From the NCBI GenBank assembly GCA_945876285.1, contig CAMCNO010000013.1, positions 1 to 64,000 of the forward strand: a stretch of DNA of 64,000 bases, given 5' to 3'. Position numbers and translations under genes: made by a program. Numbering within the stretch: the first letter of the stretch is position 1; each line of letters starts with the position of its first letter. The DNA comes from an uncultured Clostridia bacterium (lineage in GTDB: Bacteria > Bacillota > Clostridia > Oscillospirales > Oscillospiraceae). Shown here in pieces: positions 214-43,094 of the stretch. The notes below the pieces were generated by a model, which saw only the letters and a program-made list of their open reading frames with translations, searched no databases and was not told where the DNA came from.

Positions 214-1458
214 TTGAATCAAGACATTGTTTGCACGAACATGCTGGATGAAACGGCGCTGTCCGGCGCGGTGGCGGAATTCCTGCGGACTGTGCGCCCG
301 GAGCGCCAGCGGCTGTTCGACTACTACCGGGGCGAACAGCCGGTGCCCAAGGGCGAGGCCGTACGGGGACGGCCCAACAATTTGCTCCGCGTCCCCTTCC
401 CCCGCTACATCACCGAGGTCCAGACCGGATATTTCCTGGGCCTCCCCCCTACGCTGGCGTTTCCCGGAGAGCGGGAAAGCCTTGCGTTTTCCACGCTGAA
501 GGACGCCCTGTCCCTGGACCACCTGCTCTTTGACATCGGCAGGGACATGAGCGTCTGCGGCGCCGGGTTCGCCCTGGTGTGGCTGGACCGGACAGGGCTG
601 CAGGCCTGCCGCTGCGACCCCCTTTCCTGCTTCGCCATCCGCAGCGGTCAGGCGGGAGCGCCTCTGCTGGGCACTGTCCGCCTGTTTCAGGACGCAGGAG
701 GCGGCACCGGCGGCGTCCTTTACCAGGCGGACGCCCTGCGGCCCTTCACCTGGGATGGCAGCCGGGCCGTTTGGGAGCCGCCCCAGGAAAACCTCCTCCG
801 GGCCATCCCCCTTGTCCCCTTCCTCAATAACTGCCAGGGCTGCGGCGACTTCGAGATGGTGACGGGGCTGGTGGACGCTTACAACCTGCTGCTCTCCGGC
901 GCGATGGACGATATGCAGTCCGTGGCCAACGCCTTTCTGGCGCTGTACGGAATGCAAGGCACCACTCAGGGCGACATCGACGAGGCCAACAGGACCCGGG
1001 TGCTGTCTCTGGCGGAGGGCGGCCGGGCGGAGTTCGTGGTGAAGGAGCTGAATCACGAGGCCCTGGGCCAGTTGGAGGAAAACCTGCGCCGGAGCATCCT
1101 GCAGCTTTCCATGACGCCGGACCTGTCTGACCAGCAGTTCGCGGGAAACGCCTCCGGCGTGGCGATGCAGTACAAGCTGTGGGGCATTGAACAGGTCCGT
1201 GCTGCCAAGGAACGGAGCTTTACAGACGCGCTGTTTCAGCTTTTGGCGGTTCTTTCCGGCGGCTTCGCCGTGCTGGGCACCAGCGTGGACCTGACGGCGG
1301 GCAAGGCGGCCTTTTACAAAAATCTGCCCCAGGACCACACAGCGCTGGCCCAGACGCTGCTCTCCCTCTCCCCTGTCCTGTCCCAGCGGACCATTCTGGA
1401 GCATCTGCCCTGGGTGACGGATGTGGAGGAGGAGCTGCGGAGAAAGGCCGCGGAGTAG
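214..1458 (+). CDS. Phage portal protein, SPP1 gp6-like
   Basis: This protein of about 414 aa would form the dodecameric ring at one capsid vertex, through which DNA is packaged and to which the tail attaches. It has SPP1 gp6-family layout: an N-terminal region with an RPNNLL/PRYI segment, a hydrophobic stem region, and the family-typical GNASGVAMQYKLW segment near residue 310. Length is normal to slightly short for the family (about 420-500 aa). I chose the TTG at 214 because GGAGGG lies 6 bases upstream; an in-frame ATG at 193 would put that ribosome binding site inside the gene. The scaffold-like gene follows after 40 bases. Oddly, no terminase precedes it in the window and no capsid follows; both are about 30 kb away. 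The frame is intact. Family assignment is firm; function within a working particle is inferred. Confidence 0.88.
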   Translation: MNQDIVCTNMLDETALSGAVAEFLRTVRPERQRLFDYYRGEQPVPKGEAVRGRPNNLLRVPFPRYITEVQTGYFLGLPPTLAFPGERESLAFSTLKDALSLDHLLFDIGRDMSVCGAGFALVWLDRTGLQACRCDPLSCFAIRSGQAGAPLLGTVRLFQDAGGGTGGVLYQADALRPFTWDGSRAVWEPPQENLLRAIPLVPFLNNCQGCGDFEMVTGLVDAYNLLLSGAMDDMQSVANAFLALYGMQGTTQGDIDEANRTRVLSLAEGGRAEFVVKELNHEALGQLEENLRRSILQLSMTPDLSDQQFAGNASGVAMQYKLWGIEQVRAAKERSFTDALFQLLAVLSGGFAVLGTSVDLTAGKAAFYKNLPQDHTALAQTLLSLSPVLSQRTILEHLPWVTDVEEELRRKAAE

Positions 1459-1498
1459 TAAAAGCGCCCTAAAAAATATTTGATAAAGGAGAAATTCT

Positions 1499-1789
1499 AT
1501 GACGGAAGACGAGAAACAGGAGCTGGAGGCTCTGCGGGAGGAAAAACGGCAGCGGGTACAGCAGGCCCGCGCCCGGAAGCTGCTGGAGGACGCCGGGATC
1601 CCCGTGTCCTTCGCTTCCCTGCTGGCGGGCGGAGATGACGGCGCCACGGACCAACGTACCCAGGACTTCTGTGCCGCCTATCAGGCGGCTCTGTCGGAGG
1701 ATGTGCGCAGACGCCTGCCCCAGCAGGCTCCGGTGGTGACGCCTCCTGTGCCCCAGCGTCCCCGCCGGGGCATCCAACGGCTTCGATAA
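1499..1789 (+). CDS. Capsid scaffold-like protein (DUF4355-type)
   Basis: A 96-aa protein with a highly charged, helical N-terminus rich in E, K and R (a likely coiled coil over residues 1-35), then a short LLEDAGIP-type motif and a tail rich in P and R. This resembles the small scaffold proteins encoded between portal and capsid genes in Firmicutes siphophages and myophages, although those are usually longer (150-200 aa). AAAGGAG sits 7 bases before the ATG. It shares the portal operon and ends at a strong hairpin. Here it is the last phage gene of the left locus, because the capsid gene expected next lies at 32381. It may be shortened or a rudimentary scaffold. Assignment rests on position and composition more than on sequence motifs. 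Confidence 0.6.
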   Translation: MTEDEKQELEALREEKRQRVQQARARKLLEDAGIPVSFASLLAGGDDGATDQRTQDFCAAYQAALSEDVRRRLPQQAPVVTPPVPQRPRRGIQRLR

Positions 1790-1793
1790 AAAG

Positions 1794-1821
1794 AATCCAG
1801 GCGGCAAAAGCCGCCTGGATT
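1794..1821 (+). terminator. Hairpin after portal-scaffold unit
   Basis: A perfect 12-bp stem (1794-1805 with 1810-1821) with an AAAA loop lies 4 bases after the scaffold stop. There is almost no T-run on the plus strand. It also lies just past the stop of the minus-strand gene at 1830, and reading that way it is followed by CTTTTT, so it could serve both directions. Confidence 0.6.
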
Positions 1822-1829
1822 TGCGCAGA

Positions 1830-1964
1830 TTAGGTATAAGATGTGTTCCCACATCTGGGGCACGGGGGCAGTGTATCGGTATTATCGTCCAAATGGACAT
1901 TCTGACCACACTCTGTACACTGGTAATCCCCGATGCCGGGTTTTTCTCCGGTATGATAAGCCAT
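1830..1964 (-). CDS. Small zinc-ribbon protein (44 aa)
   Basis: A 44-aa reading frame with two CxxC pairs: CTEC near residues 16-19 and CPRC near 36-39. This is the pattern of a single zinc ribbon. The N-terminus (MAYHTGEKPGIGDYQC) resembles small stand-alone zinc-ribbon proteins found across Firmicutes, whose function is unknown; structural or nucleic-acid binding is the usual guess. AAGGAG lies about 10 bases before the ATG. It is the last of three tiny minus-strand genes and ends facing the portal unit. A longer plus-strand frame over the same bases has no recognisable content. Confidence 0.65.
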   Translation of the reverse strand: MAYHTGEKPGIGDYQCTECGQNVHLDDNTDTLPPCPRCGNTSYT

Positions 1965-1988
1965 ACTATGTATGTCTCCTTTCGTGTT

Positions 1989-2108
1989 TTAGTTGGGGGT
2001 AGAGCGGCGGTGTCCGTCTACCTTTGTGCCGTCGCTTTTCGTATAGGGCTTCACGACGACGATCTTTTTGTCCGGTTTACCCCGGACACTGGACTTGGTT
2101 TTAGCCAT
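1989..2108 (-). CDS. Very small basic protein with KPYTKSDG motif (39 aa)
   Basis: A 39-aa lysine- and arginine-rich frame starting ATG-GCT-AAA. Its core, VVKPYTKSDGTKVDGHRRS, matches the short V-x-Y-x-[RK]-x-DG-T-x-V-x-x-H-x-R signature that recurs in many small bacterial and mobile-element proteins of unknown role. It could bind nucleic acid, but that is only inferred from charge. It lies 24 bases upstream (in transcription order) of the zinc-ribbon gene and may be cotranscribed with it. The upstream ribosome binding site is weak. Confidence 0.5.
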   Translation of the reverse strand: MAKTKSSVRGKPDKKIVVVKPYTKSDGTKVDGHRRSTPN

Positions 2109-2146
2109 CTTGTATGTTTCACAGCAGATGCTCTGATTCTGGAGCG

Positions 2147-2170
2147 GCGGGGAGGAGATTCCCTCCCCGC
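2147..2170. terminator. GC-rich hairpin between two tiny minus-strand genes
   Basis: GCGGGGAGG (2147-2155) pairs perfectly with CCTCCCCGC (2162-2170) around a 6-base loop. Neither strand has a T-run, so it may be an attenuator or an mRNA-stabilising structure rather than a true terminator. Confidence 0.4.
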
Positions 2171-2180
2171 TCTCGGTGCC

Positions 2181-2312
2181 TTAGCGGTACACAGGGATCC
2201 GAAATGCCTTCAGGCCGTGATCCTTAGCATAGTGCTTGACACCGTTGATCGTAATGGAGGCGCGAAAAATATAATAGGCGACCTCACGACGCTCCGTTTC
2301 AGGAGCTTCCAT
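2181..2312 (-). CDS. Small hypothetical protein (43 aa)
   Basis: A 43-aa frame beginning MEAPETERREVAYYIFRASI and ending with a basic tail (KAFRIPVYR). GGAAGGAG lies about 9 bases before the ATG, which is the best support that it is translated. The middle (AYYIFRASITINGVKHYAKD) has alternating hydrophobic residues like a beta-hairpin. I do not recognise the family. It is the first gene of the three-gene minus-strand group 1830-2312. Confidence 0.5.
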   Translation of the reverse strand: MEAPETERREVAYYIFRASITINGVKHYAKDHGLKAFRIPVYR

Positions 2313-2431
2313 GCGCTGTTCTCCTTCCCGGCTGGAGACTTGGATGCTTGACAGCGCACGGAACGTGTGTTATCGTAGAACTACTCAATCCTATTGCATC
2401 TGGGGATACCAACCGCATACCCCAACCAAAG

Positions 2432-2459
2432 GCGACGGCTCGGCAAAGCCGCCGCTTTT
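2432..2459 (+). terminator. Hairpin with T-run in the 2313-2651 spacer
   Basis: GCGACGGCT (2432-2440) pairs with AGCCGCCGC (2447-2455) with one mismatch, followed by TTTTCC. It could terminate a plus-strand transcript reading over the small genes, or be an upstream structure for the minus-strand transcript. The remaining spacer between 2313 and 2560 shows no gene. Confidence 0.4.
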
Positions 2460-2559
2460 CCTTTGTCCAACAACAGCATACCATGGATTTCCAGTTTTGT
2501 CAATACCACTCAATAAAAAGTGGATAATAGATAAATTAGTAATAAATTGCAGAAAAATA

Positions 2560-2587
2560 TTGATTTACTGGATGACCTGTGTATAAT
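2560..2587 (+). promoter_or_regulatory. Promoter of XRE regulator
   Basis: TTGATT (2560-2565) and a consensus TATAAT (2582-2587) are separated by 16 bases. The leader to the ATG at 2652 is about 60 nt and contains a direct repeat of AAAGCCGAA near 2607 and 2625. The perfect -10 box and AT-rich upstream DNA suggest steady expression; the repeat could be an autoregulatory site. Confidence 0.65.
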
Positions 2588-2651
2588 AGAATATAGGTAA
2601 TCATGTAAAGCCGAAATCATAAGAAAGCCGAAGAAAGAGAGGGGCTAGGTA

Positions 2652-3704
2652 ATGAAATTTGAGGTAACACCGGAATTGGCAGAGGCCATTAGAATGTCCC
2701 GTATTGAAAGCAATATCGCATCGAAAGACTTAGCCAGCCATCTCAACAGAAGCCCCGCCTATATTTCAAAGCTTGAGAAAGGCGAGATCAAGACAATTGA
2801 AGAGGAAGAGTTGACTTCTATCCTGAATTTCATCATTTGTGACAAAGATTCATTTGCGGAAAAGCTGGAGGCTTTTGCAGACAACCTGTTCCTTCGTTAT
2901 GATCCGGAAGAAATTGAGAGAAACCAGCTTTGGTTTGAAAACTACGACTGGGTCATTTGCAAGGTCCCTGTTCCGGAGACATTGGTTGACGAAATCAATG
3001 AGCGTATGGATGCAGCAGATGTACATATAAAGGACCTGAGCTTTTTGATCAATGCTAATTTAGAGCTGGATGAATCCGATCGATATAATGATAGTATTCC
3101 ATATAACCAGTGGCGGGAAAAAATTATTGATGGCCGCGTGCGGAATCATTACATCAAACTTAAAATCGACTCCGCTGAGATCACACAGCTTCTGGATAAA
3201 GAAACCACGGCAGTCAGTTATCTGCTAGTTTTTGTAATTGTTCGATTCCTACTTTGGATGACCGAGTTTCCCAACAGTAATATGCTTACAGATGAGGAGC
3301 TTTTAAAAATTTCCAAAGAAACAGGAAAATTGTTGAATAAGCACAAGTTTTTCTCTATTCGAGAAAAAGAACGGTTAAAGCGAAATACAGAGATGAAAAA
3401 GGAGCTGAACCTCCTGTTTTCCTCTGATGAGCAAGAAACTACCTCTTTTGTACAAGAATTGATTTCCTTTGTTGGAATTATGGGGACGCTTGATGTCCCG
3501 AGAGCCAGTAAAAGCTTGAAAAGCCTCAACATTGCGTTGGAATGGGATGCGGGCTTCATACTGAAGCTGTTGAGTCTCCCCTTTCCTGAGATGGACGGCG
3601 TAAGCTTTACAAATAAGAAGCAATTACTGCAAGAAATCGAAGACTTGATTCAAAAGTATAAGGATATGCCAGCCACTCTAAAGGGACTTGAATCTTATGA
3701 TTGA
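2652..3704 (+). CDS. XRE-family HTH regulator with large C-terminal domain
   Basis: A 350-aa protein. Residues about 8-62 form a Cro/C1-type helix-turn-helix, with SKDLASHLNRSPAYISKLEKG as the turn and recognition helix. The remaining ~280 residues are mostly helical, with a hydrophobic stretch near 190-205 (SYLLVFVIVRFLLW) and no motif I recognise: no LexA-type peptidase, metalloprotease or TPR consensus. Such proteins are usually DNA-binding regulators with an effector-sensing half. It has its own promoter and ends at a strong terminator. It lies between the isolated portal unit and the tail-fibre cassette, so it could be a prophage-derived repressor, but this is only positional. Base composition is more AT-rich than the surrounding phage and glycan genes, which suggests separate acquisition. 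Confidence 0.75.
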   Translation: MKFEVTPELAEAIRMSRIESNIASKDLASHLNRSPAYISKLEKGEIKTIEEEELTSILNFIICDKDSFAEKLEAFADNLFLRYDPEEIERNQLWFENYDWVICKVPVPETLVDEINERMDAADVHIKDLSFLINANLELDESDRYNDSIPYNQWREKIIDGRVRNHYIKLKIDSAEITQLLDKETTAVSYLLVFVIVRFLLWMTEFPNSNMLTDEELLKISKETGKLLNKHKFFSIREKERLKRNTEMKKELNLLFSSDEQETTSFVQELISFVGIMGTLDVPRASKSLKSLNIALEWDAGFILKLLSLPFPEMDGVSFTNKKQLLQEIEDLIQKYKDMPATLKGLESYD

Positions 3705-3741
3705 TGTCAGCGCTAACACTTCATATTAACGGAAATAGACT

Positions 3742-3782
3742 GCTCCGGGGATTACATCGCTGTAATGTCCGGAGCGTTTTTC
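3742..3782 (+). terminator. Rho-independent terminator after XRE regulator
   Basis: A 15-bp stem with two mismatches (3742-3756 with 3761-3775) is followed by GTTTTT. It lies 37 bases after the stop codon. Confidence 0.85.
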
Positions 3783-3907
3783 CTGTCCGGACATTTTTTG
3801 AGAAGCAATTCGCACGATTGCGCCAGACTTTTTCGTTACAGTAGAATCAAAGCCGCTCCTATGCCCGGAGAGCGGTAAACTGAGGAATCGAAGGAGTTGA
3901 AGCAAAT

Positions 3908-4978
3908 TTGGACATCCAAGGATATTTTACAGAAAGAGGGCTAGTGCTTTCCGCGAAACTGCTGACTGGAGCGGCATTGGTCATTACCCGGGTAGTCGCT
4001 GGCAGCGGCGAGACACAAACCACAGCAGGTTCTTTGTCGCAGCCATGCCAGACGCTGGCGGTAAATTCTCCTACCCGTAACGGGAACAACTCAACCATTC
4101 CCGCAACCCTTGCAGCGGTCAGTGCATCGGGAAACTACACGCTTACAGAGCTTGGCGTTTATGCCAATGATCCGGCTGAGGGAGAAATCCTTTACAAAAT
4201 CTATAGATTGGCTCACCCGGTGAATATTGTAGCTGGCAGCAGCCTGGCGCTGCGGTTCTATCTGGAGGAGACGGTCTCCCTGGACTTGGGTGTGACGGTG
4301 GAGTGCTCCCCTGCCGGACTGCTGACGGAGGCCGACCTGACGCCGGTGAAGGAAAAGCTGTTTGCAGTCAGCACAGGCAGCAGAAGCGTTTCTCTGGAAG
4401 CGTCCCAGCTGCAGGCCTTTTTGGAAAGTCTGCCCCGGCTGCTGACGGAGAACATCACCATCACCGTCAGCGGGACCACGGATGAATACATCTATATCAA
4501 AAATTTCTATGGAAGCGGCAGTATCAAGCTGCAGGCGGATGCGGGCGGATTTACGATTCAGCGCCAGCTGCAGGTGGATGACTGCTCCATCGACATTTGG
4601 TTGGATGGGCTGACGTTTGACGATTCGGCAGGACTGGACTATGACGCAAAGCTGCTGGTCTGGTATTCCGGCAGTGTTCATGTTTCCGACTGTGCGTTTT
4701 CAGGGGCAGACACAGGAACTGCGATCCAGGTGGGGTATACTTCCAACGCGCGCGTGAAGGACTGCTCCATCAAAAATTTTGAACGGGCTCTTGATACAAC
4801 CAGCAATTCAATGGCATCTCTGCAAAACTGCGCCGATGTGGCCGGCAATACGTTCGGAATTATGTCTTCCTGGGGTGCTCTGGTGTGGTTGGCAGGAAAC
4901 ACACCGGAACTGCTGGGAGGTGCTTCAAATTATAAAAATGGCGGACTGATCGCCAAAGTGGACGGAACACTGCTGTAA
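3908..4978 (+). CDS. Phage tail fibre/tailspike-like protein
   Basis: A 356-aa protein. Residues 1-150 match the tail-collar/fibre N-terminal domain and are clearly paralogous to the fibre at 40773: shared GSGET, LTELGVYA and SPAGLLTEADLT segments in the same order. From about residue 175 the sequence becomes a series of short beta-strands with regularly spaced D, G, N and S residues (for example VSDCAFSG, VKDCSIKNF), as in a right-handed beta-helix tailspike. The N-terminal part would attach to the baseplate; the beta-helix would bind or cleave a surface glycan. The start is TTG at 3908 with AAGGAG about 11 bases upstream. It heads a three-gene cassette ending at a terminator and is 30 kb from the tail operon, so it may be an alternative fibre. 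Confidence 0.75.
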   Translation: MDIQGYFTERGLVLSAKLLTGAALVITRVVAGSGETQTTAGSLSQPCQTLAVNSPTRNGNNSTIPATLAAVSASGNYTLTELGVYANDPAEGEILYKIYRLAHPVNIVAGSSLALRFYLEETVSLDLGVTVECSPAGLLTEADLTPVKEKLFAVSTGSRSVSLEASQLQAFLESLPRLLTENITITVSGTTDEYIYIKNFYGSGSIKLQADAGGFTIQRQLQVDDCSIDIWLDGLTFDDSAGLDYDAKLLVWYSGSVHVSDCAFSGADTGTAIQVGYTSNARVKDCSIKNFERALDTTSNSMASLQNCADVAGNTFGIMSSWGALVWLAGNTPELLGGASNYKNGGLIAKVDGTLL

Positions 4979-4989
4979 GGGGGGACTAT

Positions 4990-5250
4990 ATGACGCTGTA
5001 TCTTTATAAAACAGGGACGGATGTCCCTGTGGTACTGCTGGAGGATGTGAATTCCTATACCGCTGACCGGGTGGTAACGAAAAAAGGCGTATACGCTCCT
5101 CTGGCCGGGGACTGCGAGCTTTCCACCACTCCGGACTGCGCCGGGACGCTGCGGGCGGACTGGCGGAAAAAAAATCCTCCCGCCGAGAAACGGCTGGAGG
5201 AAGTGGAGGACGTGCTGGCTGAGCTGCTGTTTGGAGGTGAGGCGGAATGA
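4990..5250 (+). CDS. Small phage-associated protein after tail fibre
   Basis: An 86-aa protein beginning MTLYLYKTGTDVPVVLLEDV, with a small beta-rich N-terminal part and an acidic helical end (EKRLEEVEDVLAELLFG). Its location immediately after the fibre gene, with a GGGGGGA ribosome binding site, matches the small XkdW-like or fibre-assembly proteins at the ends of tail operons; the equivalent gene in the main tail operon is 42564-42950, though the two sequences are not obviously related. It overlaps the next gene by 4 bases, suggesting coupled translation. Function unknown. Confidence 0.6.
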   Translation: MTLYLYKTGTDVPVVLLEDVNSYTADRVVTKKGVYAPLAGDCELSTTPDCAGTLRADWRKKNPPAEKRLEEVEDVLAELLFGGEAE

Positions 5251-5387
5251 CTATGGCATTGAACCTGTTGCTGCGGGTCTTGCGCCGCAGAGTGAGTAAG
5301 GGGGAATCCCTTGACAGTATTCTGGCCGACTATCCCCGCCTGACGGAGGAGGAACGGGAACAGATCCTGGCCGCGCTGGAGGGCTGA
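5247..5387 (+). CDS. 46-aa protein with DUF433-like helix pair
   Basis: It begins ATGACTATG overlapping the previous stop. The second half (KGESLDSILADYPRLTEEER) matches the G-x-S-x-x-x-I-L-x-D-Y-P-x-L-T-x-E-D/E pattern of DUF433 proteins, which are often antitoxin-like DNA-binding partners. The first 15 residues are hydrophobic and basic (MALNLLLRVLRRRV). By position it corresponds to xkdX at the end of the main tail operon but lacks the XkdX signature. Last gene of the cassette. Confidence 0.5.
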   Translation: MTMALNLLLRVLRRRVSKGESLDSILADYPRLTEEEREQILAALEG

Positions 5388-5491: not shown

Positions 5492-5507
5492 CGCGGTGCT
5501 GAAGAGG

Positions 5508-32135: not shown

Positions 32136-32380
32136 AGGGGCAAAACTCCTTTCTTTACATGGTTTTTCCCAGTTTGACGGCAAAGGCGGTCGTGGGATAG
32201 GGAAGGAGTTTTTCCGGGAACTCGTTCCATATGTGGGACCCGGAGACAAAATCATGCACGAAGCCATACAACACATTCGAAATATTTTCCGGAAATGCTT
32301 CAAAAGTGTGGAAGTGGCAAAAAGCGTCATACTGTGTTCAGCGTCCCACGCAGGGGCAGAACATATTTAGGAGGTATTTT
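32136..32380. promoter_or_regulatory. Divergent control region between terL and capsid operon
   Basis: 245 bases without a supported gene. Both operons must start here. No consensus sigma-70 pair is obvious on the capsid side, which would suit an activator-dependent (Mor-like) promoter. TTAGGAGG (32368-32375) is the capsid ribosome binding site. A short dyad AGTTTTTCCGGGAAC is near 32205-32220. Confidence 0.4.
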
Positions 32381-33316: not shown

Positions 33317-33317
33317 T

Positions 33318-33641: not shown

Positions 33642-33644
33642 GCC

Positions 33645-34115: not shown

Positions 34116-34522
34116 AAGCCATTCAGGACGCCGTAACGGCGTATTTGGAGACAGCCACGGGCGTCCGCACCGTGGCTGACAGAACCCGCGTCCCCGGCGT
34201 GTACCCCCTGCTGGCGGTGGCCGTCCGGGAGGACGGCACCGTGCTGGTGGACGGTGGACGGCAGGCCGAGCACACCTACCGGGTAACCGTTTCGGCGGCA
34301 TCCGACAGAGACCGGGACGGGAACACCGCTCTGCTGGCGTCTCTGGTGCCTGTCCTGCTCCGGGGCGTGCCCATGGGGGAGCGCACTTTGCATCCCCTGG
34401 ACATCAAGACCGAGGGAGAGGAACTGACCTTTGCCCTGGTGCTGTGCATGCCGGTGCCCCCGGCGGAGAAACCCGGACAGACGGAGCCGGGGGTTATGGA
34501 AACGCTTCGGCTGGGCATTTGA
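34112..34522 (+). CDS. Tail terminator-like protein (XkdJ/DUF6838 position)
   Basis: 136 aa, alternating strands and helices typical of tail-completion proteins (VYPLLAVAVREDGTVLVDGG, HTYRVTVSAASDRDRDG). The DUF6838-like pattern of an N-terminal helix (AIQDAVTAYLETAT), then RxxR and a VxV strand pair, is present. It would cap the tail tube at the head-proximal end. Translationally coupled to the previous gene. Confidence 0.68.
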   Translation: MKAIQDAVTAYLETATGVRTVADRTRVPGVYPLLAVAVREDGTVLVDGGRQAEHTYRVTVSAASDRDRDGNTALLASLVPVLLRGVPMGERTLHPLDIKTEGEELTFALVLCMPVPPAEKPGQTEPGVMETLRLGI

Positions 34523-34552
34523 CCCGGACATTTTATGAATTAGGAGGAATCT

Positions 34553-35596: not shown

Positions 35597-35608
35597 GGAG
35601 GAGAAACA

Positions 35609-36052
35609 ATGAGGGAATTACAGGCAAACCGCACCCTGTCAGGCTCTTTTGCCGAGGTCTGGGTGGACGGTGCACGCATTGCGGAGCTTAGCGAGCTGAC
35701 GCTGACCGTCAAGGTTCAGCGGGAGAAAGTCCAGTTCGGCATGGACGTGGACAGCAAGATCGTGGGCTACTCCGGCGAGGGCACCATGACCCTCAAGCAG
35801 GTCTATACCCGCTTCTATGAGGTGCTGGAGCAGGCCAAGCGCGGCATCGACAAGCGCTGCACCATCACCACCGCCCTGAAGGACCCCGATGCCGCTGAGG
35901 GCGCCGAGGAGCGTTACAGCGTCAGCAACGTGGCCTTTACGGAGCTGCCCTTTATGAACTACAAGATGGGCGAGGTCAACCAGCAGAAGCTGCCCTTTAC
36001 CTTCCGTCCCTCTGATCTTACCTGCCTGGACGCCATCGGCGTCCCTGACTGA
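35609..36052 (+). CDS. xkdM: Tail tube protein
   Basis: 147 aa of the XkdM/DUF2001 type: SFAEVWVDGARIAELSELTL, KIVGYSGEGTMTLKQVYTRF and a late FTELPFMNYKMGEVNQQKLP segment. It forms the inner tube inside the sheath. The stop overlaps the next gene by one base (TGATG). Confidence 0.92.
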   Translation: MRELQANRTLSGSFAEVWVDGARIAELSELTLTVKVQREKVQFGMDVDSKIVGYSGEGTMTLKQVYTRFYEVLEQAKRGIDKRCTITTALKDPDAAEGAEERYSVSNVAFTELPFMNYKMGEVNQQKLPFTFRPSDLTCLDAIGVPD

Positions 36053-37275
36053 TGGGACTGGCGGAGGAGCTGAGAGCGCGGGCGGCCCGACAGGGCCGCT
36101 CCGCGACCATAGAATGCGGCGCTCTGGGCACGGTGACCGTGGAGGCTCTCCCTGTCCGGGAGCTGGAGCTGATGTTCCGGGGGCCTGACGGCCAGCGTGC
36201 GGTGTTTTACGCTGCCTGCCGGGAATTGCAGGCCGCCGGCGAGGAGCTGCGGAAGGCCGGACAGGTGTTTGCCCCGGACGGCATCATGCAGTTCGTATCC
36301 AACAGCGAGGCGGCAGCGGCGGCACAGACAGTTTTGGAACTGAGCGGACAGCCGGACTTTTCGGCAAAGACTGAAAACCAACTTGAGTCCGTGCATGAAT
36401 TCGTACAGCAAATCCCGGAAGTCCGACAAGACATTGTGCAGGAGCAGGTGGTTTCTTCCGCGGAACCACAGGCAGAGCGCGAAAACCAACTTACGACCGT
36501 GCAGGAAACGGTGCAGCAATTGTCCGAAATCCGACCAGTAACCGTGCAGTTCCCGGAGACCGCTCCGGCGGCTGGACAAGTCTCACGTGAGTTTTCCCCA
36601 AATGGGGACTCCGGGTGGGTGACACCAAGCGAGGGGACTGTTTCGGATTTTGAACAACAAAATCCTGCGTTGCCCGAGAAAAACGACGGTTTTATGTTAT
36701 CTTTTGAAGTGTCCGGGGATCATGGGAAAGTACCTGGGCAAATGGAGGGTATGAACGAAATCAAGTCGGAATTCGGAGAGGGGCAGCAGGAAACCACTTC
36801 GGGATTTCAGGACGGAAATCGGGAAAGTCTGCACGAAACCACATCGGAATTTCAGGGTGGGAACTGGGAAAGTCCGCACGAAACCACATCGGAATTTCAG
36901 GGCGGAAACCGGGAAAGCCTGCACGAAACTACGTTGGGATTTCAAGGCGGAACAGAGGAAACGATGTACGAAATCATGTCGAAATCCACTGACGCGCCGC
37001 ACGAAACTATGCCGGAATACCGATATGGCTTGCAAGAAACCAAGTCGGATTTTGACGGAATCCGCCGGAATAGTCCGCACAAAACCACATCGGATTTCAA
37101 TGAAGCTCTGCACGAAACGACGTCGGACTTTCAGCAGGGGCTGCACGAAATGACATCGGAATTCCCGAAAAAAGACCGTGCCGCCCTGCACGAAACTACA
37201 TCGGAACTGGCGGAAGCCGTGGTCCGGCGGCTGGTGGAGGGCCTGCAGCGGGCAAAATGGGTGAGAGGGGACTGA
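36052..37275 (+). CDS. Tail assembly chaperone-like protein with long internal repeat region
   Basis: 407 aa, about three times the usual XkdN length. Residues 1-105 resemble tail assembly chaperones (VTVEALPVRELELMFRGPDG, AVFYAACRELQAAGEEL), and the last 30 (LAEAVVRRLVEGLQRAKWVRG) look like the end of the same domain. Between them is a low-complexity region rich in E, T, Q, S and H: from residue ~247 at least 11 tandem units of 15 or 11 aa, each starting H-E-T-T-S-E/D-F. Its position is right before where the tape-measure gene should be; that gene is absent. The insertion could be repeat expansion in a dispensable loop or a real structural element. No slippery frameshift site is obvious. Confidence 0.65.
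   Translation: MGLAEELRARAARQGRSATIECGALGTVTVEALPVRELELMFRGPDGQRAVFYAACRELQAAGEELRKAGQVFAPDGIMQFVSNSEAAAAAQTVLELSGQPDFSAKTENQLESVHEFVQQIPEVRQDIVQEQVVSSAEPQAERENQLTTVQETVQQLSEIRPVTVQFPETAPAAGQVSREFSPNGDSGWVTPSEGTVSDFEQQNPALPEKNDGFMLSFEVSGDHGKVPGQMEGMNEIKSEFGEGQQETTSGFQDGNRESLHETTSEFQGGNWESPHETTSEFQGGNRESLHETTLGFQGGTEETMYEIMSKSTDAPHETMPEYRYGLQETKSDFDGIRRNSPHKTTSDFNEALHETTSDFQQGLHEMTSEFPKKDRAALHETTSELAEAVVRRLVEGLQRAKWVRGD
36790..37209 (+). repeat. In-frame 45/33-bp tandem repeat array in chaperone gene
   Basis: Units begin GAAACCACATCGGAATTTCAG or close variants. Unit lengths run 45, 45, 45, 45, 33, 33, 45, 33, 33, 45, then a partial unit; all are multiples of 3, so the frame is kept. Units 2 and 3 differ at about six positions; outer units are more diverged. 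GC is lower than in flanking genes. Weaker VQE-V-QQ repeats precede it (36380-36560). Confidence 0.85.
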
Positions 37276-37279
37276 TTTT

Positions 37280-37903
37280 TTGAACACGAGAACAGTTTTG
37301 CTTTGGCACAACAACGGTGAAGAGCGTATCTACTTTACAGTCAATCCCGCTCAAATTGCCGTCTCCCGGCCCAACCGGAACCGGGTGTTGTCCCTGGCCA
37401 TGGGCGGCACGGTGAACGCATGGGGCGGACGGGGCCTGCGGGAGGTGCGTCTGGAGACCTTTCTGCCGGACGCGGGCTCTCCCTTTTACGACGGCACCGA
37501 CCCCCAGACCGTGCTGGCTATGCTGCGCTCCTGGCAGGACTCCGGAGACCCGGTGCGGCTCATCCTCTCCGGCAGCGACATCAACGACGCGTTCCTCATC
37601 GAGGACGTGACGGAGACCCTGCGGGAGGGCGACAGGGACGTGGGGCTGACTTTGACACTGCGGGAGTATAAATTCAAGTCGGCTCTTGCGGCCCTGGCAG
37701 GAAAGAGCGGCACATCCGGCGTCAGCTTTCAGCGGCAGGATGAGCGGGTGCTGCCCCGGACCTACACCGTCAAAAAAGGCGACACCCTGTGGGGCATCGC
37801 CTGCCGGTTCTACGGGGACGGGACGAAATGGGGCACGCTGGCGGCGAAGAACGGCGTCAGCGACCCGAGAAAACTGCAGATAGGGACGGTGCTGACGCTG
37901 TGA
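37280..37903 (+). CDS. xkdP: LysM-domain tail/baseplate protein (XkdP-like)
   Basis: 207 aa, TTG start with GAGAGGGG about 10 bases upstream. Residues 1-150 are the XkdP-type domain (YFTVNPAQIAVSRPNRN, FLPDAGSPFYDG, LREYKFKSA). Residues ~160-207 are a LysM domain (TYTVKKGDTLWGIACRFYGD, NGVSDPRKLQIG). In phage tails it joins tube and baseplate hub. In PBSX it follows the tape measure; here it directly follows the chaperone-like gene. Confidence 0.88.
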   Translation: MNTRTVLLWHNNGEERIYFTVNPAQIAVSRPNRNRVLSLAMGGTVNAWGGRGLREVRLETFLPDAGSPFYDGTDPQTVLAMLRSWQDSGDPVRLILSGSDINDAFLIEDVTETLREGDRDVGLTLTLREYKFKSALAALAGKSGTSGVSFQRQDERVLPRTYTVKKGDTLWGIACRFYGDGTKWGTLAAKNGVSDPRKLQIGTVLTL

Positions 37904-38787
37904 GACTGACGGTCAACGGCCTTTTGGTCAACCCCGTGCTGGGGACGGCACGGCTGGAAAAGAGCAGGGAGGACGCCTCGGCGATTTTGACCGCCATCCT
38001 CTGGACGGCCCCGGCCGATACCTACTTCCAAAAGCCGTCCCTGGCGGTGGGGGACGTGGTGCGGCTGACGGACGATTCCGGCAAGGAGCGGTTTCTGGGC
38101 AGTGTCCACTGTCTGGAGAGAAGCCCTGAAAAGGTGACACTCACCGCCTTTGACCGGGGGGTGTACCTGGCCCGGAACGAGCTGTACGGCGTGTTCTGCG
38201 GTTCCGGAACGGATATCTGCCGCCAGGCGGCGGCGAAGCTTGGCATTCCTGTGGGGAGCATTGATGCCGACATCACCCGCAGGACGATTGTCACCAGGGC
38301 GGGGGAGAGCGCCTTCTCCGTCCTGCGGAAGGCCGCGGGGGAGGGCCGGGAGATTTCCGTTGAGGGTGAGGCCCTCACTGTCCGGCGCTGCCGGGAGGAG
38401 ACGCTCACTCTGGCTCCGGAGCGGGTGCTGGAGGTCTCCGCCGCGGTGGACATCCGAAAGGTGATAGACCGCTGCGTGGTGGTGGATCGGAAAGGCCGTC
38501 CCATTGCCACGGCGGAGAACGGCGGAGACATTGCGGCCTACGGCCTGTTCCAGACCGTGCTGGGCAAGGCAGGCAACGCAAATGAACAGGCCAGAGCAGC
38601 TCTGACGGGTCGAGCTATGACCGCCGGGGTGACGCTTCTGGGCGATCTGGGCTTCCGGGTGGGGAGCCGGGTGCGGGGCTCTCTGCCCCAGTGGGGGCTG
38701 GAGGGTATCTACACTGTCACCGCCGTATGCCACCGCTGGGAGGCGGGGCTTTTCACCACGGAGCTGACATTGGAGGTACTGGAATGA
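37900..38787 (+). CDS. xkdQ: Baseplate hub protein (XkdQ/gpD-like)
   Basis: 295 aa from GTG 37900, which overlaps the previous stop (GTGA). Contains the gpD/late-control-D pattern: FLGSVHCLERSPEKVTLTAFDRG, ISVEGEALTVRRC and a C-terminal IYTVTAVCHRW domain. It would form the hub at the tail tip. A longer frame upstream lies over xkdP and is not needed. Confidence 0.85.
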   Translation: MRLTVNGLLVNPVLGTARLEKSREDASAILTAILWTAPADTYFQKPSLAVGDVVRLTDDSGKERFLGSVHCLERSPEKVTLTAFDRGVYLARNELYGVFCGSGTDICRQAAAKLGIPVGSIDADITRRTIVTRAGESAFSVLRKAAGEGREISVEGEALTVRRCREETLTLAPERVLEVSAAVDIRKVIDRCVVVDRKGRPIATAENGGDIAAYGLFQTVLGKAGNANEQARAALTGRAMTAGVTLLGDLGFRVGSRVRGSLPQWGLEGIYTVTAVCHRWEAGLFTTELTLEVLE

Positions 38788-39032
38788 ACGTTTACAGCGA
38801 GCTTTTGGAGCTGTTGTCCCCCCGGCATCAGGCGGAGCCGCCTGTGCTGCTGGGCGTCATCCGGGGCGTGTCGCCCCTGACGTTGGAGGTGCGGGGGACG
38901 GCAGTCACTGAGGGGCTGATGGTCCCCCGGGGCACTGTGTTCTGCCAGGAGGATGTGGGCAGTGAGGTGGCCCTGCTGCCCTGCGGCAGCGGCTTTCTGC
39001 TGCTGTTTCAGGTGGAAGGAGGAGAGACATGA
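38784..39032 (+). CDS. xkdR: Baseplate protein, DUF2577-like (XkdR)
   Basis: 82 aa, a small OB-like beta-barrel pattern: VLLGVIRGVSPLTLEVRG, LMVPRGTV, DVGSEVALLPCGSGFLLLF. Matches XkdR in position and type though slightly short. Overlaps both neighbours by 4 bases. Confidence 0.8.
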   Translation: MNVYSELLELLSPRHQAEPPVLLGVIRGVSPLTLEVRGTAVTEGLMVPRGTVFCQEDVGSEVALLPCGSGFLLLFQVEGGET

Positions 39033-39466
39033 TTTTTCCCGACTGGGGCGTCCAGACAGCCGAAAATGGCGGAGAGGAGCCGCCCCTTTACACCGAGTGG
39101 GCCGTGGACTGGGACGGTGGGGCCTTCGCCCTGCGGGATGGGAAGCCCTACACCGTCACAGGAGACGAGGCCCTGAAAATTTGGGTGCGGTATGCCCTGC
39201 ACCCGGAGAATGTGCGCTTTCTTTACTCCGCCCACTCGGCGGAATACGGCAACCAGCTGGCCGACTGCATGGCGGAGCGGGCCGGAGGCGACATTCTGGA
39301 GAGCCTGCTGCGCCGGGAGATCCGGGAGACGCTGCTGGTGTCGCCCTACATCACCGCCGTGGACGGCTTTGCCTTTACACGGCAGGGCAGCCGCCTGACG
39401 GTCTGCTTCCGGGTGGACACCGTCTACGGGAACTTTACAAGTGAGTCGGAGGTGCTGACGGCATGA
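39029..39466 (+). CDS. xkdS: Baseplate wedge protein, DUF2634 (XkdS, gp25-like)
   Basis: 145 aa. GDEALKIWVRYALHPENVRF near residues 48-68 and the later LRREIRETLLVSPYI segment are characteristic of the XkdS/gp25 lysozyme-like wedge family, which nucleates sheath assembly. Coupled to both neighbours by ATGA overlaps. Confidence 0.88.
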   Translation: MIFPDWGVQTAENGGEEPPLYTEWAVDWDGGAFALRDGKPYTVTGDEALKIWVRYALHPENVRFLYSAHSAEYGNQLADCMAERAGGDILESLLRREIRETLLVSPYITAVDGFAFTRQGSRLTVCFRVDTVYGNFTSESEVLTA

Positions 39467-40245
39467 CAAAAGACGAGATATTAGCGGCGCTGCTGGCGGC
39501 CTACCACGGCCCCGGCAGCACCGGGGAGGGCAGCTTTGCCGGAGATGTGCTCCGCGCCTGCGCCGACGCCATGGCGGAGCTGTGGAGCGTGGATATCGAC
39601 GGCCTGGAGCGCCGGGCCTTCGTGTCCACTGCTACAGGGGACTGGCTGACGCGGGTGTGCGCTGACCGTGGCGTGGAGCGCCGGGAGGGCGAAACGGACG
39701 AGGAGCTGCGCAGCCGCACGCTCACCAAGCTGGCAAGCCAGCCCGCCTCCGGCAACGCCGACCACTACACCGCCTGGTGCGGCCAGGTGGCGGATATCCT
39801 GCGGGTGCGGGTGCTGCCCCTCAACCGGGGAAACGGCACGGTGGACATCGTGGCCGTGGGGCCGGACGGAAAAAGCCCCGCCCAGAGCGTGCTGGACGAG
39901 GCGCAGGCGATTGTGGATACAGAGCGGCCTGTGGGCGCTGACGTGAAAGTGATGGCCGTCACAGAGACGGCGCTGGACATCGCCGCCACAGTGACGCTGA
40001 TGGACGGCGCGGCGCTGTCCGCCGTGGAGACGGCCTTTGGGGCGGCGCTGGCAGCATTTTGCCGGGATAACGCCCTGCGCACCACCACCATCAGCTACGC
40101 CAAGGCGCTGCGGCTGCTGCTGGACACGGCGGGCGTGGCAGATGTGGCGGGCTTTACCATCTGCGGCGTTGCGGAGAGCCTGACGCTGGAGCAGACCGCG
40201 GTAGCCGTCCCCGGTACGCTGACCTTTACGGAGGCGAACGCATGA
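39463..40245 (+). CDS. xkdT: Baseplate J-like protein (XkdT)
   Basis: 260 aa. VDIDGLERRAFVSTATGDWLTRV and RREGETDEELRSRTLTKLAS (family motif E-x-D-E-x-x-R-x-R), then PASGNADHYTAW and VLPLNRGNGTVDIVAVGPDG. XkdT of Bacillus is about 350 aa, so this is a compact version lacking part of the N-terminal region. It forms baseplate arms. Confidence 0.9.
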   Translation: MTKDEILAALLAAYHGPGSTGEGSFAGDVLRACADAMAELWSVDIDGLERRAFVSTATGDWLTRVCADRGVERREGETDEELRSRTLTKLASQPASGNADHYTAWCGQVADILRVRVLPLNRGNGTVDIVAVGPDGKSPAQSVLDEAQAIVDTERPVGADVKVMAVTETALDIAATVTLMDGAALSAVETAFGAALAAFCRDNALRTTTISYAKALRLLLDTAGVADVAGFTICGVAESLTLEQTAVAVPGTLTFTEANA

Positions 40246-40757
40246 GACTTCCCGCATTTTTGAAAAGAATCTCCCCCATCGGGGAGACACTGGAGGCCAT
40301 GGAAGCAGGTGCAGCCCTGCTGACGGAGGAGACGGCGCAGCGGAACCGCCAGCTCTCCGTGGAGACGGCGGACACAGGCCTTTCCCTGTGGGAGGGCGAT
40401 TATTCCCTGTCTGGAGGCGGGGATCTGGAGCTGCGCCGGGGCCGTATCCGGGCCGCCATGGCGGGCGGACGGACGCTGACGGCGGAGGAACTGAAGATAC
40501 TGGCGGTCACTGTGGGCGGCGCCGACGGCGGGGCGGTGGAGGAGGACTTCTCCGACTGGAGCGTGACGCTGTACGCCCTGTTTGACGGCCGTATACCGGG
40601 GGATATGACGGCGCTGAAGGAGGCTGTTGCCCGCCGACAGCCCGCCCATCTCGCTGTGGAGGTGGCACCCGTGACGGTGCTGCGGGGCACTCTGACCCGC
40701 TATACCGCCCTGACCGGCAAAGCGCACCTCATCGTGCATAACCGGATGGAGAATTGA
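40242..40757 (+). CDS. xkdU: Baseplate/tail protein, YmfQ-like (XkdU)
   Basis: 171 aa of the DUF2313/YmfQ type: ETAQRNRQLSVETADTGLSLWEGDY and LELRRGRIRAAMAGG, where E-x-x-Y/L and RR-x-R-I positions match. It follows XkdT as in PBSX and overlaps it by 4 bases. It probably links baseplate to fibres. Confidence 0.85.
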   Translation: MRLPAFLKRISPIGETLEAMEAGAALLTEETAQRNRQLSVETADTGLSLWEGDYSLSGGGDLELRRGRIRAAMAGGRTLTAEELKILAVTVGGADGGAVEEDFSDWSVTLYALFDGRIPGDMTALKEAVARRQPAHLAVEVAPVTVLRGTLTRYTALTGKAHLIVHNRMEN

Positions 40758-40772
40758 CAAAGGAGGAATACC

Positions 40773-41528
40773 ATGGAACTACTGGGACAGATGACCCAGC
40801 GGGGAAACGAGCTGCGCCGGGCGGCGCTGGCGGGAGAGTCCGCCCTGCAGTTCACCCGCTGCGCCGCGGGAAGCGGCGAGACCGCAGCGGACGCCGCGGT
40901 ACTGGACAGCGAACAGCAGGCGCTGACGATGGGACAGACCCGCAGTACGGACACGGGACATATCCTGCCCGTCACGCTGGTCGCGGCACTGGCGCAGCAG
41001 GACTATTTGCTCACGGAGGTGGGCCTGTATGCCCGTGACGGGGCGGGGGAGACGCTCTACTGGGTGTACCGGATGACATCCGCCCTGGCCATCACCGCCG
41101 GGGGCGGCCTGACAGTCCGCTTCGAGCTGGAGGAGGCCATTGACGGCGAGCCGGAGGTGACGGTCAGCCCGGCGGGCCTTGTGACCGAGAGGGACCTGAC
41201 GGCCCTGATGGGCGCGCCGGACGGCCTTGCTACGCTGGACGGGAACGGCAAGGCGCCGGACGCACAGCTCCCCGCTCATGCGGCGCGCCACGCCAGCGGC
41301 GGCAGCGACTGCATCACGCCGACCAGCATCGGAGCGGCGGTGGCAAGCCACACACAGGCCGCAAGCACAATTTCGGAGGGTACTTTTGCAGGAAAAGTAC
41401 GAAGCGACCCAACAGCAAGAGCCGTTTTGACGGACTATCAGCTCCGGGATATTGCGGCTGGCAGCACGGACATGACGGCGGGAAGCACCGCCTTGAGCAA
41501 TGGCCTGGTGTACCTCGTCTATGAGTGA
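40773..41528 (+). CDS. Tail fibre protein (collar-domain)
   Basis: 251 aa. Residues 1-150 are the same fibre N-terminal domain as at 3908 (GSGETAADAA, LLTEVGLYARDG, SPAGLVTERDLT). After a short linker (LDGNGKAPDAQLPAHAARHASGGSD, a GNGK-x-x-x-x-QLP type fibre repeat) there is SIGAAVASHTQAAS and a short unique end. The C-terminal adhesin portion is small, so the following gene may complete the receptor-binding assembly. Confidence 0.85.
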   Translation: MELLGQMTQRGNELRRAALAGESALQFTRCAAGSGETAADAAVLDSEQQALTMGQTRSTDTGHILPVTLVAALAQQDYLLTEVGLYARDGAGETLYWVYRMTSALAITAGGGLTVRFELEEAIDGEPEVTVSPAGLVTERDLTALMGAPDGLATLDGNGKAPDAQLPAHAARHASGGSDCITPTSIGAAVASHTQAASTISEGTFAGKVRSDPTARAVLTDYQLRDIAAGSTDMTAGSTALSNGLVYLVYE

Positions 41529-41539
41529 GGTGAGCACAT

Positions 41540-42550
41540 ATGGCTAGGAATGCTTACATCGGCGTGAGCGGCGTAGCGAGGAATATTTCAAAGATGTATA
41601 TGGGTGCGTACTTTGGCGGAAGCGCCGGGCGCACGGAGTGCATCGTATCTACCGCGGACTTTCTTTTGTACACATACAGCAGCCGAAACTACAAAAAGGC
41701 ATGCGCCGGGGACGCCTATGTGGCCTACGCAGTGTCAGACGGCTGGCTGGCTCCACTGCTTGTCAGCAGGACGGCAAACGCTGTTGCCTACTACACGGAC
41801 GGAGATTACTCAAGCGCTATTATGGAGTACGAGAAAACCGTTACCTTCCGTGGAGAAACCTGGTATGTGAGCACCAGCGGTGCGGCATTTCAGACTACTG
41901 ACATCCCTTCCACGTCAAATGTGGTCAATATCAATGCAATTGCCGGCGTTGCGTCGTTCAACACTCGTGAAGAAGCAGCGCTTGCCCTGCTCAATTATGT
42001 AAATTGGTTACCAGCAGGTGACAACATTGCCAGAAAAATCACTAATGGATATGTCGGTGTAAATGGCATTGCAAAAGCGTTCTATACAGCGCCTGTTCGT
42101 GACGAATTGATTGTAAGCACTGCAAACAAACTGATTTTGAGTGTTGGACGTGACGCAGTTACTCGTAATTTCTACAAGGTAAACGCAAATCCTTCCATTT
42201 GTGCATATCAGAAATTTGCAGGCACATATAACGGGACCGCATGTAACTACTACACTCCAATACTCATAAGCGAAGACCCGGAGGCGGTTAAGGTTTCTGT
42301 CTATGATGTGGAATCAAGTGGAACAACTACGCTGGGAACCAATGTTGCGTATCAAACCACCATTCAGTACCGTGGTAAAACATGGTACGTAACCCGTGAA
42401 CTTTCCGCTGTTTATGACAAAGTGGGGAGTAATGAAAATACGGTGAAAGACGGCGTTTCCTTCCTAAACGGACTGACTGGTGTTTCCAGTTATTCCAGCC
42501 CTGACGCAGGTGCGCTTGCATTGCTGAAATATTATCACTACGACATTTGA
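41540..42550 (+). CDS. Two-domain internally duplicated tail-tip/adhesin-like protein
   Basis: 336 aa built of two homologous halves. Half 1 starts NAYIGVSGVARNISKMYMGAY; half 2, from about residue 166, starts ITNGYVGVNGIAKAFYTAPV. Both go on through a Y-rich beta segment to FRGETWYV / YRGKTWYV and end with FNTREEAALALLNY / YSSPDAGALALLKYY. No signal peptide. By position (between fibre and XkdW/XkdX genes) it should be a fibre or receptor-binding subunit. The second half is distinctly AT-richer than the first and than the surrounding operon, a sign of recombination. Confidence 0.72.
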   Translation: MARNAYIGVSGVARNISKMYMGAYFGGSAGRTECIVSTADFLLYTYSSRNYKKACAGDAYVAYAVSDGWLAPLLVSRTANAVAYYTDGDYSSAIMEYEKTVTFRGETWYVSTSGAAFQTTDIPSTSNVVNINAIAGVASFNTREEAALALLNYVNWLPAGDNIARKITNGYVGVNGIAKAFYTAPVRDELIVSTANKLILSVGRDAVTRNFYKVNANPSICAYQKFAGTYNGTACNYYTPILISEDPEAVKVSVYDVESSGTTTLGTNVAYQTTIQYRGKTWYVTRELSAVYDKVGSNENTVKDGVSFLNGLTGVSSYSSPDAGALALLKYYHYDI

Positions 42551-42563
42551 TGGAGGAATTTTT

Positions 42564-42950
42564 ATGATTATCAAACTGACAAACGGCACAGCACTGAATC
42601 CCATCCTCGCAACGGGCGGGCAGAGATACGTGCAGGGCGTAAGCCGTGACACGCTGTCTTTCGTGTTCCCTGCGGATGCAGGCATGGACGAGCTGGATGC
42701 CCTGTTCACAGCCGAAAACTGCGAGGCGATCACCATCGTGGACGGTGAGAACGAGTATATCCATCACGGCTATACCATCCGCGCGGAGCTGAAGCGGGAG
42801 CCGGTGGTGGTAACGCCCGCGGCAGAGGCCAGCGAAGCGGTTACGGAAAACCGTGTGACGGTCTCCATGAGCCAGCGTACCTACATGGAGAGCCAGCTTG
42901 CCGCCACTCAGGCGGCCGTGGAGATGCTGTGCATGCCCGATGCGGAATAA
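42564..42950 (+). CDS. Small tail-associated protein (XkdW position)
   Basis: 128 aa: a compact beta-rich domain of about 80 residues (RDTLSFVFPADAGMDELDALF, CEAITIVDGENEYIHHGYT) then a helical end with SQRTYMESQLAATQAAVEML. Such proteins sit just before xkdX in many Firmicutes prophages. Function unknown; possibly a fibre chaperone. Confidence 0.7.
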   Translation: MIIKLTNGTALNPILATGGQRYVQGVSRDTLSFVFPADAGMDELDALFTAENCEAITIVDGENEYIHHGYTIRAELKREPVVVTPAAEASEAVTENRVTVSMSQRTYMESQLAATQAAVEMLCMPDAE

Positions 42951-42962
42951 GGAGGAGAGATT

Positions 42963-43094
42963 ATGAACTACAGCACTGTGAAAAGATTTTACAGCAGCGG
43001 CCTGTGGAGCCTGAACATGGTAAAGATGGCCGTCCGCAAGGGCGTCATCACCAAGGAGCGGTTCCGGGAGATTACCGGAGCGGTATACGGCTGA
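42963..43094 (+). CDS. xkdX: XkdX-family small protein (43 aa)
   Basis: 43 aa: MNYSTVKRFYSSGLWSLNMV, then the hallmark AVRKGVITKERFREITGAVY (V-x-K-G-x-I-T-x-x-x-x-x-x-I-T-G). XkdX usually marks the end of the tail operon. Ribosome binding site AGGAGAG is good. No holin or endolysin follows; the operon ends at the terminator. Confidence 0.88.
   Translation: MNYSTVKRFYSSGLWSLNMVKMAVRKGVITKERFREITGAVYG

Follow-up and report, generated by a model that had tools for sequence, protein, structure and literature searches.

Phage-derived contractile particle genes dispersed over separate loci in Oscillibacter-related gut bacteria: a candidate gene transfer agent

Introduction

The particle genes of RcGTA, the gene transfer agent (GTA) of Rhodobacter capsulatus, are distributed over several loci and regulated by the host. 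In PBSX of Bacillus subtilis, which packages DNA, the genes are contiguous, the portal gene lies between those for the terminase large subunit (terL) and the capsid, and the contractile tail module contains XkdM-, LysM- and XkdX-type genes. Here we describe phage-derived particle genes in a 64,000-base stretch (the window; bases 1–64000 of contig C13, 65,804 bases) of an Oscillospiraceae genome, labelled G000 in the comparisons (2.29 Mb, 94 contigs, 85.5% complete), where a portal–scaffold–fibre cassette (193–5387) and the main cassette (30186–43094) lie on either side of a surface-glycan locus. The set resembles RcGTA in occupying more than one locus and differs from it in having a contractile tail where RcGTA has a non-contractile one; RcGTA also has other regulators and a host of another phylum. 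The order of the tail genes is similar to that of PBSX, whereas the portal gene lies elsewhere and terL is inverted, and the contiguous PBSX-type arrangement is absent from the window.

FpGTA of Faecalibacterium is described as podovirus-like; its packaging genes occupy two chromosomal loci, which in one strain are separated by ~125 kb. A small-terminase candidate is named, locus II encodes a holin–endolysin pair, and DNA replication genes are stated not to have been identified (PMC12946183). Compared by description, FpGTA and the G000 set are both DNA-packaging phage genes at two loci of gut Bacillota. Unlike FpGTA, the G000 set is contractile, scans of window proteins revealed neither a small terminase nor lysis genes, and in some relatives Rep3/ParAB genes adjoin the particle genes. 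The same report assigns 3 of 25 GTA-like packaging events to Onthomonas, in the Oscillospiraceae, yet its GTA gene search in four metagenome-assembled genomes is described as giving a strong candidate operon only in one from Faecalibacterium (PMC12946183). Our literature search, thin in subscription journals, found no paper pairing 'gene transfer agent' with 'Oscillibacter'. The window supplies particle genes in dispersed form together with candidates for the activator and its operator, and a contractile GTA in gut Clostridia becomes a directly testable question.

We propose that the two cassettes very probably specify one particle, split, co-regulated and kept by its host. As to its role in these Oscillibacter-related gut bacteria, we lean towards a GTA-like function. 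A particle in two or three pieces with one apparent switch looks more like a host-owned transfer or killing particle than like a broken virus.

Results and discussion

Portal and capsid genes occupy separate loci in related genomes

Window genes were named from Pfam and PHROG profile matches to their proteins, which covered part of the open reading frames; features are on the + strand unless stated otherwise. The left cassette starts with a gene for an SPP1 Gp6-like portal protein (193–1458; PF05133, E = 6.8e-61; PHROG portal, 7.1e-75; the TTG at 214, the start chosen in the preliminary description, is a plausible alternative), followed by a short DUF4355/Gp46 head scaffold gene (1499–1789; DUF4355, 6.5e-10; PHROG scaffold, 2.5e-12) and tail fibre A (3908–4978; PHROG tail fibre, 1.8e-12). 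In the main cassette, genes for a Mor-type late transcription activator (30186–30476, – strand; PF08765, 7.9e-17; PHROG late transcriptional activator, 8.4e-18) and terL (30558–32135, – strand, start approximate in a frame open to 32330; PHROG, 4.3e-97, without a Pfam match) diverge from a run that leads from the major capsid gene (32381–33316; PHROG major head protein, 9.3e-62, without a Pfam match) to an XkdX-like gene. Most particle genes are intact, and head, packaging and tail functions are all represented. The profile matches confirmed what the preliminary description had read from the letters: a portal, scaffold, fibre cassette (3908–5387), terL/Mor pair and capsid-to-XkdX run (XkdX by eye), with the main locus lacking a portal, the portal in the left locus, and a glycan locus, identified by Pfam on part of its genes, between the two sets.

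We asked whether this split recurs. Among 86 genomes of the genus, including G000, a capsid query with 50 extra N-terminal residues (P0002) gave some match in 30, at ≥71% identity in 9 and at ≤33% in 21. The portal was found at ≥69% identity in 7 of the 86, plus a truncated copy in G020. All eight portal genomes carry the capsid, none has the portal alone, and G022 (87% complete) is the only one in the genus with the capsid and without the portal (Fisher p = 1.7e-10, the 86 genomes being treated as independent though related). A family sample of 300 genomes contained five capsid matches at 1e-30 or better (G000, G007 and three of other genera); G198 and G261, from two other genera, have both capsid and portal, and in G264, from a third (85% complete), the capsid was found and the portal was not. 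Nine genomes, from 3 genera, have full-length portal and capsid genes in different locations. For fibre A, the match is limited to the N-terminus in some genomes.

The preliminary description had proposed looking for the same split order in related genomes, and it was there: terL and capsid diverge, with no portal between them, on every one of the 13 contigs that have the two genes (G000, G007, G029, G093, G075, G022, G020, G198, G261, G264, L092, L096 and L102). The genome-wide terL search covered 60 relatives, a set outside which G066, G075 and G093 fall. In G021 terL is on a separate contig, and 19 kb separate the capsid from the portal. The particle genes are dispersed over two loci in G000 and three in G021, and dispersal over more than one host locus is conserved between species. 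In G066 capsid and portal share a 75-kb contig from which terL is absent; this contig appears, by eye, to be chromosomal, because it bears dnaK/dnaJ-, recR-, rnf- and folC-like genes. The portal was on the contig in one of 11 capsid loci from IMG/VR, UViG_28048, where it lies 3' of the tail and ParAB genes. Misassembly is unlikely because the cassettes are likewise separated on one contig in the G029, G066, G021 and G198 assemblies.

A second portal or full prophage outside the window had been raised in the preliminary description as a challenge to a single particle. A portal gene does exist on contig C5 of G000, but its protein is 21% identical over part of its length, and the gene lies in what looks by eye like an unrelated prophage, among capsid-like and tape-measure-like (1,056 aa) genes of that prophage; it was rejected as a supplier of portals. 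The C5 region (~41000–79500; L047, L048) is by eye a siphophage-like prophage with a 498-aa portal and replication-type genes.

An operator-like motif precedes portal, fibre and capsid genes

A dyad with the consensus TTTTGGGAA-N4-TTCCCAAG, counted when at least 13 of 17 consensus letters matched, lies 95–122 bp 5' of the capsid gene in 16 of the 20 stretches examined. Matrices were made from 14 such sites for scanning the portal contigs of relatives and from 13, omitting G000, for scanning contig C13; L090, L092, L101 and G261 (poor sites) and L094 and UViG (near-duplicates) were excluded by hand after inspection. With the 13-site matrix the three best of 131,568 positions in C13 were, in descending order, 5' of fibre A (3796–3816), 5' of the capsid gene (32286–32306) and 5' of the portal gene (135–155; TTTATTGAATTGCTTCCTGAG). 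After column shuffling, none of 500 matrices had as many as two of its three best hits in those windows. On the portal contigs of relatives the best site within 150 bp was 53–62 bp 5' of the portal gene in 9 of 11, ranking in the top 0.05–3.3% of windows. Because the top three hits precede fibre, capsid and portal, these genes are suggested to form a single regulon, which the Mor-type activator may control. One weak case for Mor as the binding protein is G261, a decaying copy: a Mor match is missing from its capsid contig, and neither its capsid nor its portal has a good site. In some relatives the dyad belongs to a longer hairpin with a T run behind it, so it may act as a terminator. G086, which has no capsid or portal match, carries a strong site at 1795 (– strand) beside a CapD-like gene, the place occupied by the portal in G066, G021 and G020; this site is perhaps a relic.

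Signs of purifying selection in most particle genes

The ratio of nonsynonymous to synonymous substitution (dN/dS), another check proposed at the outset, was below 1 in all pairs compared. Between G007 and G029 it was 0.05–0.53 over 18 genes and below 0.2 in 14 of them, with the highest values for portal (0.22), scaffold (0.31), p46 (0.36) and tape measure (0.53); between G066 and G021 it was 0.04–0.59 over 17 genes. The dS of eight main-locus genes between G007 and G029 (0.18–0.44) was at or below that of gyrB (0.48). Gene trees were built from sequences with at least 60% coverage and no internal stop, so G020 is missing from most, and the host tree held 11 of the 12 carriers (all except G093), six rows having fewer than half of the columns filled. 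Host pairs were partly kept, G007–G029 and G198–G264 by capsid and terL and G021–G066 by capsid and sheath (where both are present); the G007 portal and the G000 capsid were misplaced. The portal and capsid phylogenies, whose agreement the preliminary description had proposed to check, agree only in part. Because the gene trees match the host tree only partly, vertical keeping of the particle genes appears to be mixed with exchange. The earlier suggestion of one domesticated-looking particle over split loci is thus backed by purifying selection and by the recurrence of the split in related species.

Relation to colinear prophages of the genus

Three genomes of the same genus (G006, G033 and G080) carry ordinary prophages with a colinear Mor–terL–portal–capsid order. 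They resemble the split family in Mor (41–44% identity), terL (54–55%), portal (26–27%), capsid (28–30%) and sheath (43–47%), and G033 also in its DUF4355 scaffold. The split family is not colinear. G033, the one colinear prophage scanned for gene content, has the DUF4355 scaffold and also MuA, an AAA (MuB-like) protein, Gp27, the Mu F-type minor head protein, a holin and a LysM/C39 peptidase; apart from the scaffold, none of these was recognised among the window proteins scanned. Mor, terL, portal, scaffold, capsid and tail are retained in the split family. Mor is present without any MuA-type match among these window proteins, and the combination of MuA, Mor and late operon that marks a Mu-like transposable phage was not recognised there. 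The PBSX relationship proposed in the preliminary description fits the order of the tail genes; of the nearest ordinary relatives found in the genus, the colinear prophages, the one tested (G033) is Mu-like, not PBSX-like.

The gap between the tube and LysM genes is 1,248 bp in G000, where it holds a short tape-measure candidate of 407 aa (36052–37275, placed by position and without a phage family match), and 0.78–1.5 kb across 15 contigs of the split family. In colinear G006 and G033 it is 3,155 bp, and in five more distant capsid loci (L090 and L098–L101) it is 0.61–0.64 kb. The tail of the split family is probably short, since its gap is small compared with those of G006 and G033.

A proposed mechanism, and what weighs against it

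We propose that both cassettes encode one contractile-tailed, DNA-packaging particle that would derive from a phage of the G033 type (Mor, TerL, SPP1-type portal, DUF4355 scaffold) and would now be host-owned, dispersed into loci and maintained by selection. The Mor-type activator would act on the common TTnGGAA-N4-TTCCnAA operator before portal, fibre and capsid genes, giving one switch. Heads would probably be filled with non-specific host DNA, because no small terminase was recognised beside terL, and the fibre-bearing contractile tail would deliver this DNA to kin, making the particle a gene transfer agent in function.

Several observations weigh against this scheme. The portal-proximal motif is weak in several genomes (in five, 1.4–3.3% of windows score as high) and was not found within 150 bp in G261 and UViG_28048 (in the latter a site at 17759 is ~300 bp 5' of the portal), and the portal sites of relatives are homologous and hence not statistically independent. 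A strict pattern, composed after the three G000 sites had been seen, gave 8 matches in G000, 3 of them the particle sites, against 3 for a backward control; over 8 carriers it gave 37 against 20, with 11 of the 37 at known particle sites. The motif-linked regulon search did not find a lysis cassette: no lysis gene was recognisable 3' of 15 further matches inspected (of the 26 remaining), of which 12 are inside or overlap the end of called genes, two (G000 C6 and G007 C48) are outside called genes and one (G000 C9) coincides with the start of an acetyltransferase-like gene (named by eye). Distribution is patchy, with the high-identity capsid in only 9 of 86 genus genomes. The dN/dS values are higher between G000 and G029 (0.16–0.64 over 20 genes; capsid, 0.53), the portal dS between G007 and G029 (0.98) exceeds the host value (gyrB, 0.48), and purifying selection by itself would suit an active phage too. 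The G007 portal groups with that of G261, of another genus (support of 99 in the Shimodaira–Hasegawa-like approximate likelihood ratio test, SH-aLRT), and the G000 capsid groups with those of G066/G021 (SH-aLRT 94), although the host's kin are G007/G029. Finally, Rep3/primase-helicase and/or ParAB genes, which the window lacks, lie next to the capsid locus in 6 of the 12 carriers, which suggests that the ancestor, or the element itself, was more autonomous.

The main rival to gene transfer is PBSX-like killing, in which the same co-regulated, host-kept particle would package host DNA and kill competitors via its fibres with no delivery; we regard this as unlikely, if less so than the other alternatives. 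The contractile tail comprises a sheath (34553–35596; PHROG, 1e-104), an XkdM-like tube (35609–36052; DUF2001, 1.8e-28), a LysM tail hub protein (37298–37903; LysM, 7.3e-13), a YqbQ-like tail protein (37900–38787; PF24032, 1.4e-17; PHROG tail protein, 7.2e-23), a sheath initiator (39029–39466; PF10934, 2.5e-21), baseplate J (39463–40245; PF04865, 1.5e-30), a Mu Gp48-like baseplate protein (40242–40757; PF10076, 1e-7, below the family cut-off) and an XkdX-like small protein (42963–43094; named by eye, with a similar 43-aa protein in the same place in L092), and this order, PBSX-like, speaks for killing. The TerL motifs are kept (Walker A-like, DDIE and DPS in 10 of 10 TerL read, HDDxPDA in 9 of 10), as are portal and scaffold, so packaging seems to be selected for; killing has no obvious need of it, yet PBSX packages DNA. 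Fibre A has the highest dN/dS (0.59) of the 17 genes compared between G066 and G021, which also suits a killer, and PBSX is reported not to inject its DNA (PMC12946183).

A second rival is a phage-plasmid or integrated hybrid, in which Rep3, primase-helicase, ParAB and the particle are still mobile together and the part in the window has lost its replication module. Rep3 and ParB occur in an identical 7 of 86 genus genomes, five of them capsid carriers (G007, G029, G093, G075 and G020) and two without capsid (G086 and G104), and G261 has Rep3/ParB too. The order in G093 and G075 is primase/helicase, Rep3, Mor, terL, capsid to Gp48, ParB–ParA–RHH; G261 and G020 have an identical primase-to-RHH order minus Mor, and UViG_28048 holds capsid, ParAB and portal inside 23 kb. 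The ancestor therefore probably had its own replication and partition; G000, G066, G021 and G022 would since have lost them, or the genes escape notice because these genomes are incomplete. The absence of self-propagation genes claimed in the preliminary description accordingly stands for the window proteins scanned, whose matches included no integrase, replication gene, small terminase, holin or endolysin, but not for the capsid locus in these relatives. Against continued mobility, Rep3 and ParB were not matched in G000, G066, G021 and G022 (all incomplete genomes; in G198 and G264 the search took in the fetched contigs), the G066 contig is chromosome-like by eye, and neither an integrase nor a lysis set was recognised in the window. 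Rep3 has no match among plasmid records, and the capsid matches listed from plasmid and phage records are at ≤33% identity. Circular plasmid contigs were considered and rejected, because the ends did not overlap in any contig or stretch tested, some of these being partial contigs. We judge the hybrid improbable.

Old prophage remnants, rearranged and decaying, or two unrelated remnants, would accord with the missing high-identity capsid in 77 of 86 genus genomes and with decay in G020 (where terL is split into four pieces, the frames of capsid and sheath are interrupted and the portal is truncated; that both cassettes decay jointly here speaks in turn for one particle), partly in G261 (breaks in J, the 82-aa gene and fibre) and in one adaptor gene of G075 (a stop), but are very improbable and largely contradicted already by co-occurrence, the common motif, purifying selection and full-length separate portal and capsid genes in 9 genomes of 3 genera.

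The glycan locus between the cassettes

The surface-glycan locus (5508–27275, – strand; Pfam on part of its genes), not itself part of the particle, encodes a GDSL lipase, HisF- and HisH-like proteins, a sugar aminotransferase, a UDP-sugar dehydrogenase, a glycosyltransferase, two Polysacc_synt_2 proteins and an S-layer-homology protein; 4 of 10 of its genes in one scan had no Pfam match at 1e-8. Polysaccharide genes lie between the cassettes in all five long-gap contigs (G000, G029, G066, G021 and G198), called by Pfam in G000, G066 and G198 and by similarity to the window's glycan genes in G021 and G029. In these five, portal and fibre are on one side of the glycan locus and capsid on the other, with terL beside the capsid in three. 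UViG_28048 has ParAB, not glycan genes, between capsid and portal. At 19388–19821 we observed fragments of the genes at 59955–61115 and 61126–62325 (80–82% and 61% identity), which look like signs of recombination in the glycan locus.

It is speculative that particle and glycan genes move jointly. A more elaborate scheme, which we think doubtful, is that a contractile GTA brackets the glycan locus under a captured phage late activator, with the particle genes serving as recombination arms, so that glycan loci with their matching fibres would spread between species. RcGTA is described as using an extracellular polysaccharide receptor (PMC10218006). If the scheme were true, a glycan-bracketing GTA could explain the orphan GTA-like packaging seen in Oscillospiraceae.

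Other features of the window and of related loci

In the left cassette a helix-turn-helix (HTH) protein gene (2652–3704; HTH matches below the cut-off) separates scaffold and fibre. In G029 and G198 the scaffold gene directly adjoins the fibre gene, and the HTH protein is probably not a particle part; its gene sits in a low-GC stretch (GC 0.443 for 2001–4000), and fibre A, 3' of it, has its own operator-like site in G000. Fibre A is followed by genes for an 86-aa fibre-associated protein (4990–5250; 55–57% identity in G029, G066, G021 and UViG, without a family match) and a 46-aa cassette-end protein (5247–5387; PHROG 28526, of unknown function, 1.5e-6).

In the main cassette, two head–tail adaptor genes (33318–33641, PHROG 1.4e-5; 33645–34115, PHROG 5.6e-7) and a tail completion candidate (34112–34522; by position only, 44–82% conserved, without a family match) follow the capsid gene. 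An 82-aa baseplate-region protein (38784–39032; 46–60% conserved) is without a family match. Tail fibre B (40773–41528; PHROG, 1.2e-7) is an N-terminal paralogue of fibre A (43% identity), and the next two genes (41540–42550 and 42564–42950), without family matches, are taken as fibre-associated from position only. No tRNA or Rfam match was found in the window, and among 2-kb steps the GC minimum was 0.407, at 48001–50000.

Near its right end the window includes the 5' part of an Sm_multidrug_ex gene (63863–64000; the gene runs to 64339, its end being in L049; PF06695, 3.4e-40 on the full gene). This gene is between terL and capsid in G029, G007, G020, L092 and L096 and directly 5' of the capsid in G066, G021 and L093; in G000 it is ~30 kb off. 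In G093 a further cassette is possible at L257 (G093:C36, 2–1325), where small genes that are tail-like by eye adjoin a putative sugar transferase and an operator-like match lies inside a gene; two of the genes were tested and had no Pfam match. In one carrier, a CHAP-domain protein, a possible lysis enzyme, is encoded right after Gp48 (G075:C9:29890–30606).

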